From: Bdellovibrio bacteriovorus
Lineage (GTDB): Bacteria; Bdellovibrionota; Bdellovibrionia; Bdellovibrionales; Bdellovibrionaceae
Length of the DNA: 64,000 nucleotides
Reading direction: 5' to 3'
NCBI RefSeq assembly: GCF_025558485.1
Contig: NZ_CP102930.1
Location: forward strand, 1-64,000
The notes below the pieces were generated by a model. It saw only the letters and a program-made list of their open reading frames with translations, ran no database searches and was not told the origin of the DNA. Below are positions 19,341 through 22,972 of this stretch, piece by piece; the stretch's first letter is position 1; every line of letters begins with the position of its first letter. Both the position numbers and the translations under genes were made by a program.

Positions 19341-19380
19341 AATAAGAAGCGCCGAGTTGCTAGGAACAACTCGGCGCAAT
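19341..19380 (-). terminator. metK rho-independent terminator
   Basis: On the minus strand GCGCCGAGTTG and CAACTCGGCGC form a perfect 11-bp stem (19367-19377 with 19349-19359) with a 7-base loop, followed by TTCTTATTTAT. It lies 24 bases after the metK stop and just ahead of lepA, separating the two transcripts. Confidence 0.85.
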
Positions 19381-19400: not shown

Positions 19401-20564
19401 TTAAGCCAGCGTTTTAACGGCGTCTTTCAGTTGTTCCACCTTATTCAGGCGTTCCCAAGTGAAAGACTCTTCGTTACGACCGAAGTGACCGTAAGCCGCT
19501 GTGGGGCTGTAAATCGGTCTTAGCAGGTCCAGATCCTTCGTAATGCGAGCTGGGCGCAAATCGAAGACCTGGCGAACCGCTTTTTCCAGAACTTCCGGAC
19601 CTACTTTGCTGGTTCCGTAATCGTTCACAGTGATGCTCACCGGCTCCGCCACACCAATCGCGTAAGCAACTTGAACCAGGCAACGCTCAGCCAAACCTGC
19701 ACCCACGATATTCTTCGCAATATGACGTGATGCGTAAGCGGCAGAGCGATCCACTTTGGACGGGTCTTTACCAGAGAATGCACCACCGCCGTGAGCCCCG
19801 TGACCACCGTAAGTGTCCACGATGATCTTACGACCCGTCAGACCCGCATCCCCCATAGGGCCACCTGTTACGAAACGGCCTGTTGGGTTGATGAAGAATT
19901 TGGTTTTGGCATCAATCCACTGAGAAGGGATGGATTTTTTGATCAGCTCTTCAGTGATGAATTCTTTGATCGTCGCATTGGAAACACTGTCCGCATGCTG
20001 AGTGGAGATCACCACCGCATCAATGCGTTTTGCAATTCCATTTTCGTACTGAACAGTCACTTGAGATTTGGCATCCGGACGCAACCAATCCACCTTGTTG
20101 GCCTTGCGAAGAACTGCAAGATCTTTCACCAACTGATGAGACATGGCGATGCTTAAAGGCATCAATTCCGGAGTTTCATTCACAGCATAACCGAACATCA
20201 AACCCTGGTCGCCCGCGCCTTGATCATCAGAAAGAGTTTCTTTTACACCGACAGCGATATCCGGGGACTGCTGACCAACCGCGATCATCACGCCGCAAGT
20301 TTTGTAGTCGAAACCTTTGTCAGAGTGATCGTAGCCAATGCGCTTTACAACATCACGAGCCACCTCAGAGAAGTTTACTTTCGCAGAAGTCGTGATTTCA
20401 CCAGCAACAACAACCAAACCCGTTGTCAGCATGGTTTCACATGCCACGCGCCCCTTAGGGTCCTGAGCCAGAATAGCATCCAGGATACCGTCAGAAATTT
20501 GATCCGCCATTTTATCCGGATGGCCTTCAGATACAGATTCACTCGTAAACAAATAGTTTTTCAC
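19401..20564 (-). CDS. metK: S-adenosylmethionine synthetase
   Basis: Makes S-adenosylmethionine from methionine and ATP. The 387 residues contain the N-terminal ATP motif [18 protein letters not shown] (about 8-25), [12 protein letters not shown] (about 116-127) and the P-loop-like [16 protein letters not shown] (about 262-277). Length is standard. The start codon is GTG (20562-20564) with GAGG 11 bases upstream. That ribosome site is partly buried in a hairpin of the structured leader, and a promoter lies 103 bases upstream of the start. Confidence 0.97.
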
Positions 20565-20576
20565 AGCTTTCGTTTC

Positions 20577-20662
20577 CTCATTAGGGGAAGGTGGTTAATG
20601 AGCTCGGCCCTTCAAATAGGCCATCCTAATTCAGTCGGCAGTGCAGACCTCTTTTAGCGAGC
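20577..20662 (-). promoter_or_regulatory. Structured metK leader, candidate riboswitch
   Basis: On the minus strand the leader can fold into a multibranch structure. GCTCG (20662-20658) pairs with CGAGC (20606-20602) to close it. GGCC (20622-20619) pairs with GGCC (20609-20606). A 7-bp hairpin, CTCATTA (20602-20596) with TAATGAG (20583-20577), sequesters part of the GAGG ribosome site. The 12-base loop contains ACCT, which could pair with AGGT near the 5' end. It does not match the SAM-I consensus I know. Translational control of metK by its product is an inference. Confidence 0.5.
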
Positions 20663-20666
20663 GGCC

Positions 20667-20695
20667 AACCTAACAAAAGGGGTTCCGGGGGTCAA
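20667..20695 (-). promoter_or_regulatory. metK promoter
   Basis: TTGACC (20695-20690) and TAGGTT (20672-20667) on the minus strand are separated by exactly 17 bases, close to the housekeeping consensus. The -35 box overlaps the stop codon of the preceding gene. Expected transcription start is near 20660, giving a leader of about 96 bases. Confidence 0.6.
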
Positions 20696-21297
20696 GGGTC
20701 CTTGGGTTTGTGGTGGTAAAAATACGCCAGTTCAAGGAAAAAGACTGTAAAGCCTCCAACCAGGCCAATCAGGCCCATTCCAATCATGAACTGGGCAAGT
20801 GTTTTACCCAAAGAGCTGATAGCCGGTTCGGGCACCCAACCGCCATTTTGCAGAAAGAACATGATGATATAGGCCGCGACGCAAATGAACGTCCATGCAA
20901 TCGCATGGGTTCGGTTGGTCAGCAGCCCCACAATCAAAGGCAGCACCGCAAACCACAGCAGCGTCGGAGAGAAAAAGCCGCCAGTAAAGAAAGAAAAGGA
21001 AAACTGAAACACCATCCCGGCCAGAACCATGTTGTAGGCCGCAGCCGCCATGGAACCGGTCACCCGGTAAACCACCGGCGACAGGGCATGAATGATCGAA
21101 CAGGTGAAGCCGATCCGGGCCAACACAGGCTGTTCCACAAAAAATAAGGAAATCAAACTATAGGTCCACATCAACAGACCCGTAAGAACCGTGATAAGAA
21201 CCAGCAGGCGGCCCTTATAATGACGAACCAAACCGTCCTCTTTGACATCCAAAGAGAACAAACTGGCGCCCCAATGCAGTCGATTTTCCTGTTCCAA
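20692..21297 (-). CDS. Orphan six-helix membrane protein
   Basis: A 201-residue integral membrane protein with about six hydrophobic helices (roughly 32-54, 60-80, 84-104, 112-126, 130-150, 168-190), short loops and a cytoplasmic N-terminus. The pattern resembles the membrane sensor domain found at the N-terminus of some bacterial histidine kinases, but no kinase or other output domain follows; the protein ends shortly after the last helix with HHKPKDP. The start is taken as TTG (21297); no ribosome site is clear, so the start is uncertain. Function unknown. Confidence 0.6.
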   Translation of the reverse strand: MEQENRLHWGASLFSLDVKEDGLVRHYKGRLLVLITVLTGLLMWTYSLISLFFVEQPVLARIGFTCSIIHALSPVVYRVTGSMAAAAYNMVLAGMVFQFSFSFFTGGFFSPTLLWFAVLPLIVGLLTNRTHAIAWTFICVAAYIIMFFLQNGGWVPEPAISSLGKTLAQFMIGMGLIGLVGGFTVFFLELAYFYHHKPKDP

Positions 21298-22396: not shown

Positions 22397-22972
22397 TTAC
22401 AGGTTCACCATTTTTTTATAATACTCCAGCAGCTTTTTGGCCCCGTGAAGCAAGTTGGCTTCCCAATCATTGTGCGCATTATGATCTGCACCGTCGGTGA
22501 TATATTTTAAAGAAATCAACTGCACGTTCATTTTGCGGCAGACTTTCGCCAGCGCATAACCTTCCATATCCACCAGATCGCAGGCCACTTTCGGAGTTCC
22601 TGTTTCAAACGCATCACCGGTTCCACAAATGCCAGAACTTAATTCCGGGAAATAGGGAATCAAATCAATGGCCCCCGGCAAAGGATCAAAAGGAGTTTCT
22701 CCAACCTTGAAACCCAACGGGGAAATGTCCATGTCTCTTTGCACGAAACTGGAAACCTCCACCAGATCATGCGTCTGAAAACGCGAACTGCCCGCCGTCC
22801 CCAGATTGATCATCACTTTGCATTTCGTCTTGTGAATCGCTTCCAAAGCCGCATAAGTGGCATTCACTTTACCGATACCGGAATAAATAACAGGAATATT
22901 TTCTTTTTCAAAAAGCCCCTGTGACTCTCCGGGAAGAGCCATGATCAGAGCCACGTCATTAATATTGAACAA
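22397..22972 (-). CDS. MTA/SAH-type nucleosidase
   Basis: A 191-residue phosphorylase/nucleosidase superfamily protein. Family landmarks are the N-terminal ALIMALPGESQ strand-turn, the GIGKVNATYAALEAI segment (about 33-47), INLGTAGS (about 56-63), the substrate-binding DMEGYALAKV (about 134-143) and a late catalytic Asp in ITDGADHNAHND (about 157-168). It probably cleaves methylthioadenosine or S-adenosylhomocysteine, releasing adenine. That fits the overlap (14 bases) with apt, which salvages adenine, and metK nearby. It is shorter than the usual 230 residues; a futalosine- or other nucleoside-specific role is possible. Confidence 0.8.
   Translation of the reverse strand: MFNINDVALIMALPGESQGLFEKENIPVIYSGIGKVNATYAALEAIHKTKCKVMINLGTAGSSRFQTHDLVEVSSFVQRDMDISPLGFKVGETPFDPLPGAIDLIPYFPELSSGICGTGDAFETGTPKVACDLVDMEGYALAKVCRKMNVQLISLKYITDGADHNAHNDWEANLLHGAKKLLEYYKKMVNL

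Follow-up and report, generated by a model that had tools for sequence, protein, structure and literature searches.

The known riboswitches for S-adenosylmethionine (SAM) illustrate how RNAs of unrelated descent have come to sense the same cofactor in several different ways. SAM-VI riboswitches are found upstream of metK in a single genus, Bifidobacterium, where the few representatives form a three-way junction and exert translational control with SAM (PMC6914780). In these RNAs the Shine-Dalgarno (SD) sequence joins P1 and P3, the AUG start codon resides in P1, and J2-3 carries six conserved nucleotides (PMC6914780). SAM-III riboswitches, also called the SMK box, have an SD sequence that joins P1 and P3 and require a bulge in P2 (PMC6914780). 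SAM-I (S-box) riboswitches have been reported ahead of the metIC and metX genes of Geobacter and Desulfuromonas, and in those cases are linked to terminators (PMC545781). As SAM-VI shows, a riboswitch class can have fewer than 20 known members, and the metK leader described here is a comparably rare candidate.

The leader lies on the minus strand of the window, which is the whole stretch of 64,000 nucleotides that was analysed, and spans approximately 100 nucleotides from the promoter to a GTG start codon (Table 1). Judging from named relatives, the window derives from the family Bdellovibrionaceae, most likely the genus Bdellovibrio. Its substructures occur in the order P1, P2, a GAUG junction, P3 and P4. 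The same pattern, TTGG(A)CCG-YUCG-[CUAA..UUAG]-GAUG-[G..C]-CGAG-[CUCAUUA..UAAUGAG]GA..GUG, is shared by 15 of the 24 genomes of this genus that were compared, the window's own among them. Like SAM-VI RNAs, this leader precedes metK, is confined to one genus with few carriers, and appears to form a three-way junction; translational control is likewise presumed. Unlike SAM-VI RNAs, it holds the SD sequence in a separate P4 downstream of P1, its J2/3 is a four-nucleotide GAUG, and the 3' strand of P1 (CGAG) is far from the GTG. The leader resembles the SMK box in preceding metK, in its three-way junction and in sequestering the ribosome site, but its P2 and P3 are simple hairpins and its SD sequence lies beyond the junction. 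As with SAM-I, the RNA could control SAM synthesis, although it has no four-way fold and involves a ribosome site instead of a terminator. The leader may thus work like SAM-III and SAM-VI, but its separate SD hairpin and its GAUG junction make it a member of neither.

Table 1. Features of the metK locus in the window, in the order of transcription
Feature	Position	Strand	Observation
metK promoter: -35 TTGACC (20695-20690), 17-nt spacer, extended -10 TGnTAGGTT (hexamer 20672-20667)	20667..20695	(-)	Read from sequence
P1 5' strand CUCG, overlapping the likely transcription start region	20658..20661	(-)	Pairs with 20603-20606 in 15/15
P2 hairpin, conserved base CUAA...UUAG, variable tip, 21-33 nt	20626..20657	(-)	Compensatory changes at 3 pairs; folds in 15/15
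Junction GAUG	20622..20625	(-)	Invariant in 15/15
P3 hairpin, sequence wholly variable, 14-36 nt, a hairpin every time	20607..20621	(-)	Changes on both sides in 6/8 counted pairs
P1 3' strand CGAG	20603..20606	(-)	Invariant in 15/15
P4 hairpin CUCAUUA/UAAUGAG, loop 20584-20595, sequesters ribosome site	20577..20602	(-)	Strands conserved in 15/15
P5, alternative ribosome-site fold, UUCC/GGAA and UCAUU/AGUGA	20562..20591	(-)	Predicted in 14/15
Shine-Dalgarno GAGG, 3 of 4 bases within P4	20576..20579	(-)	Invariant in 15/15
metK, S-adenosylmethionine synthetase, 387 aa, GTG start	19401..20564	(-)	ORF
Terminator-like hairpin 3' of metK	19349..19377	(-)	13-pair stem, then T-rich tail

At the gathering threshold, no relevant Rfam family was found in the whole window or at 20 metK loci, and relaxed searches (E up to 10) of three leaders carrying the element and one leader from a sister clade returned only chance matches to unrelated families. 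The original prediction that the leader does not match SAM-I is therefore borne out, and by Rfam score the RNA belongs neither to SAM-III or SAM-VI nor to any other SAM or SAH family. A literature search, with supplementary material outside its reach, revealed no report of this metK leader. We conclude that the leader is a real, conserved and apparently undescribed metK leader RNA. Our preferred reading, to which we assign a probability of roughly 0.5, is that it functions as a translational OFF switch for metK that is restricted to this genus, with SAM or a related compound as the probable ligand of this proposed switch. The stronger claim falls just short of even odds, namely that the RNA represents a new SAM-sensing translational riboswitch class that occurs only in one predatory lineage, is structurally unrelated to SAM-I through SAM-VI, and marks one more independent origin of a three-way junction controlling metK.

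The metK promoter recognized originally (TTGACC-17-TAGGTT) is present in the window and is kept as TTGACC-17/18-TGnTAGnTT in all 15 genomes that bear the element, where the spacer is only 50% identical. It was absent from the output of a stringent consensus promoter scan. Two further elements predicted at the outset, a GGCC hairpin (P3) and a 7-bp hairpin over the GAGG (P4), are likewise in place ahead of the GTG start. On the minus strand, metK is followed by the terminator-like hairpin and then by lepA, and thus the leader probably serves metK alone. The same hairpin is visible in most relatives of the genus for which the 3' flank was inspected; in the window it is strong, reading GCGCCGAGTTG...CAACTCGGCGC. 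The same strand carries, upstream of metK, a probable membrane protein gene of at most 201 amino acids (20692-21297) that extends at its end into the metK promoter. A terminator-like hairpin takes the place of this gene in several relatives (e.g. L008, L012, L019 and L020). A MetJ repressor was found in none of the 24 genomes of the genus, with an E. coli control scoring positive.

To assess the structure, metK upstream regions were taken from 50 genomes, including that of the window. Taken by itself, the window leader is no more stable than its dinucleotide shuffles (z = +0.22 and -0.34), and the case therefore rests on its relatives, several of whose leaders do fold better than shuffles (z about -2.4; L066 and L079 were left out of this comparison). 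MetK proteins of relatives within the genus are 88-98% identical. Because a MAFFT alignment of all 15 leaders misaligned GGATGG in four of them, a covariance model (R1) was built from the other 11, and the four, consisting of the window leader and three relatives, served as a held-out test. In the MAFFT alignment of the 11 sequences, 96.6% of cells are paired and nine pairs have changed on both sides, which none of 500 shuffles matched, and pairing falls to 43-50% when partners are slid by one column. When all 15 sequences are fitted to the model, an alignment that hence leans towards that model, 97.9% of cells are paired and 10 pairs (31 cells) have changed on both sides, again with 0/500 shuffles; sliding by one column leaves 42-50% across both alignments. 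The four held-out leaders are recovered by R1 at 47.9, 53.5, 53.6 and 54.5 bits (E = 1e-8 to 1e-10).

The compensatory pairs among the 15 sequences are located mostly in P3 (six of its eight counted pairs) and P2 (three), with one in P4 and none in P1. Thus, the pairing of P2 and P3 is demonstrated by compensatory changes, and that of P1 and P4 is supported by perfect complementarity and position only. P4 pairing is intact in all 15 leaders, including L020, which retains only 5 bp and contains the sole compensatory pair of P4 in a region where the alignment is doubtful. In P1, one pair varies between U-G and C-G and the other three never vary. The closing stem of the original prediction best matches this helix (YUCG/CGAG), which is paired in 15 of 15 leaders but shows no compensatory change. 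The alignment of related metK leaders suggested at that time has therefore uncovered a conserved RNA secondary structure in the mRNA leader, as expected for a riboswitch. The outcome that would have refuted the original prediction, related leaders lacking conserved pairing, did not occur.

P4 is a perfect inverted repeat, and the conservation might in principle reflect a DNA operator for a transcription factor, built on the palindrome CTCATTA-N-TAATGAG, rather than an RNA. We consider this highly improbable. The spacing of the palindrome varies with the P4 loop (7-12 nucleotides), the lengths of P2 and P3 vary, and the compensatory changes fit an RNA. Furthermore, of 14 genomes that contain the palindrome, 13 have it at metK only and the remaining one carries a second copy.

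Within the genus, R1 yields a single strong match per genome in exactly 15 of 24 species, every time at metK, and the element is missing from the other nine. No other SAM or methionine gene bears it. Across 66 family and 369 phylum genomes (354 of the latter beyond the 15 carriers), R1 found nothing else above chance. The few weak matches elsewhere that were inspected were rejected, since those in L175 and L176 are within ORFs and that in L081 has no leader-like context. On a metK tree, the 15 carriers fall in supported subgroups, with nine element-free species forming a separate group, and as few as two changes explain the presence and absence of the element. A single origin is possible.

The conserved positions are concentrated in the predicted core of the RNA. 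Among the 15 sequences, no variation is seen in GAUG, in CGAG or in the core strands of P4, and the base of P2 is 95% identical, and the tip of P2 (49% identical) and the interior of P3 (30%) vary freely. A constant core with free tips is a pattern typical of RNA sensors. The variation in P2 and P3, whose sequences change freely provided that pairing holds, and the presence of two folds (P4 and P5) that both cover the ribosome site would also suit a leader that senses nothing, whose hairpins fix a low rate of translation or stabilise the 5' end of the mRNA. However, a passive fold has no need of a GAUG and stem bases that are invariant in sequence beyond what pairing demands, and such a function is in our judgment unlikely, though worth keeping in mind.

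It is also conceivable that a regulatory protein binds the leader, and CsrA would be the most likely one. CsrA is encoded in 24 of 24 genomes of the genus, and this RNA shares with CsrA-regulated leaders the presence of GGA motifs both close to the ribosome site and further upstream. A translational repressor of this kind could use the conserved UUAGGAUGG and the GAGGA overlapping the ribosome site as its two GGA sites, and the AGGAUG of the leader resembles the known CsrA consensus. CsrA sites are unpaired or in loops, whereas the upstream GGA begins with a G that is held in a conserved pair with a C at the base of P2 in all 15 leaders. The RNA therefore does not offer two or more GGA sites that are unpaired or in hairpin loops. 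Control by CsrA would also leave the conserved CGAG/YUCG and the P2 and P3 hairpins of variable length unexplained, and CsrA is present in nine species that are missing the element. This possibility consequently seems rather remote.

Returning to the translational OFF switch, the expression platform is linked to the conserved domain, as P4 covers the GAGG in all 15 leaders. P1 is predicted to close P2 and P3 into a three-way junction that would be a plausible ligand pocket, and P4 begins immediately 3' of P1, with no linker between them. P5 is mutually exclusive with P4, is predicted to be near-isoenergetic with it in 14 of the 15 leaders, and spans the start codon in most relatives; compensatory changes within P5 were not found. 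Given that the ribosome site is hidden in either fold, the default state in these folding models is probably closed or balanced, and the ON state is not defined by them. The UC of P1 can pair instead with the GA of the junction, with a probability of about 0.2 on average. This alternative pairing, together with P1 running straight into P4, suggests that binding of a ligand in the junction would favour P1 and thereby shut the ribosome site. When SAM (or a close derivative) is plentiful, it would bind the junction and stabilise P1, and P1 would then stack on P4 such that the ribosome site stays closed. When SAM is scarce, P1 would open and its UC would pair with the junction GA to extend P2, allowing the weak P4 (about -5 kcal/mol) to breathe open. 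In this mechanism, we infer the ligand, the direction of control and the coupling of P1 to P4.

P1 is the weak point of the model, having no compensatory change and a 5' strand that coincides with the predicted transcription start. Consensus spacing from the -10 hexamer places the start at about 20662-20658, which is within this strand, and thus part of the strand may be outside the transcript. An RNA starting at G20658 would have no P1. In addition, two element-free members of the genus (L022 and L025) carry TTCG at the position of the P1 5' strand, indicating that part of the conservation there may belong to the promoter. An alternative partner for P1, the CGAA/CGAG near the start codon of L006 and L020, is not conserved. 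A pseudoknot between the 12-base loop and the 5' part, suspected from the window alone, requires the AGGU of the -10 box, which is expected to be untranscribed, and is not consistently conserved; the presence of its two partners disagrees in L007, L019 and L020. The original prediction of a conserved, structured and metK-specific RNA that hides the ribosome site thus holds, but without the pseudoknot.

A riboswitch at this location might sense a different compound, either from the pathway or from the predatory life cycle, such as methionine, SAH or MTA. An association with metK suits several compounds of the methionine/SAM cycle, and a second enzyme of the cycle may be encoded nearby, judging from the sequence of a putative nucleosidase-like ORF (22397-22972). 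Nevertheless, known metK leaders such as SAM-III and SAM-VI usually work through feedback by the product SAM (PMC6914780), which makes another ligand quite unlikely. If SAM is not bound, the leader points to another metabolite or a protein that controls the supply of SAM. If our preferred reading is true, this predator, which obtains nutrients from its prey, would have a SAM-binding fold independent of those known, and the leader would be the first metK regulator proposed in this group, as far as our literature search shows. With its length of about 100 nucleotides, the leader is directly testable.

Two other metK leaders were noted. In L022, a distant species of the genus, the leader (minus strand, locus 2670-2721) retains a hairpin like P4 together with the ribosome site, but its front part is much reduced. 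It scores 9.1 bits (E = 4) against the element model and is possibly a degenerate or ancestral form. Five sister species (L013, L014, L015, L016 and L018) share a different conserved metK leader, which has no Rfam match and, apart from one weak match, is confined to them. Its predicted structure is paired in 98% of cells, with no changes on both sides. This leader would include an 11-bp hairpin around an invariant CUCUGCCCCGGUUAG and also a small hairpin over its AAGGA ribosome site.
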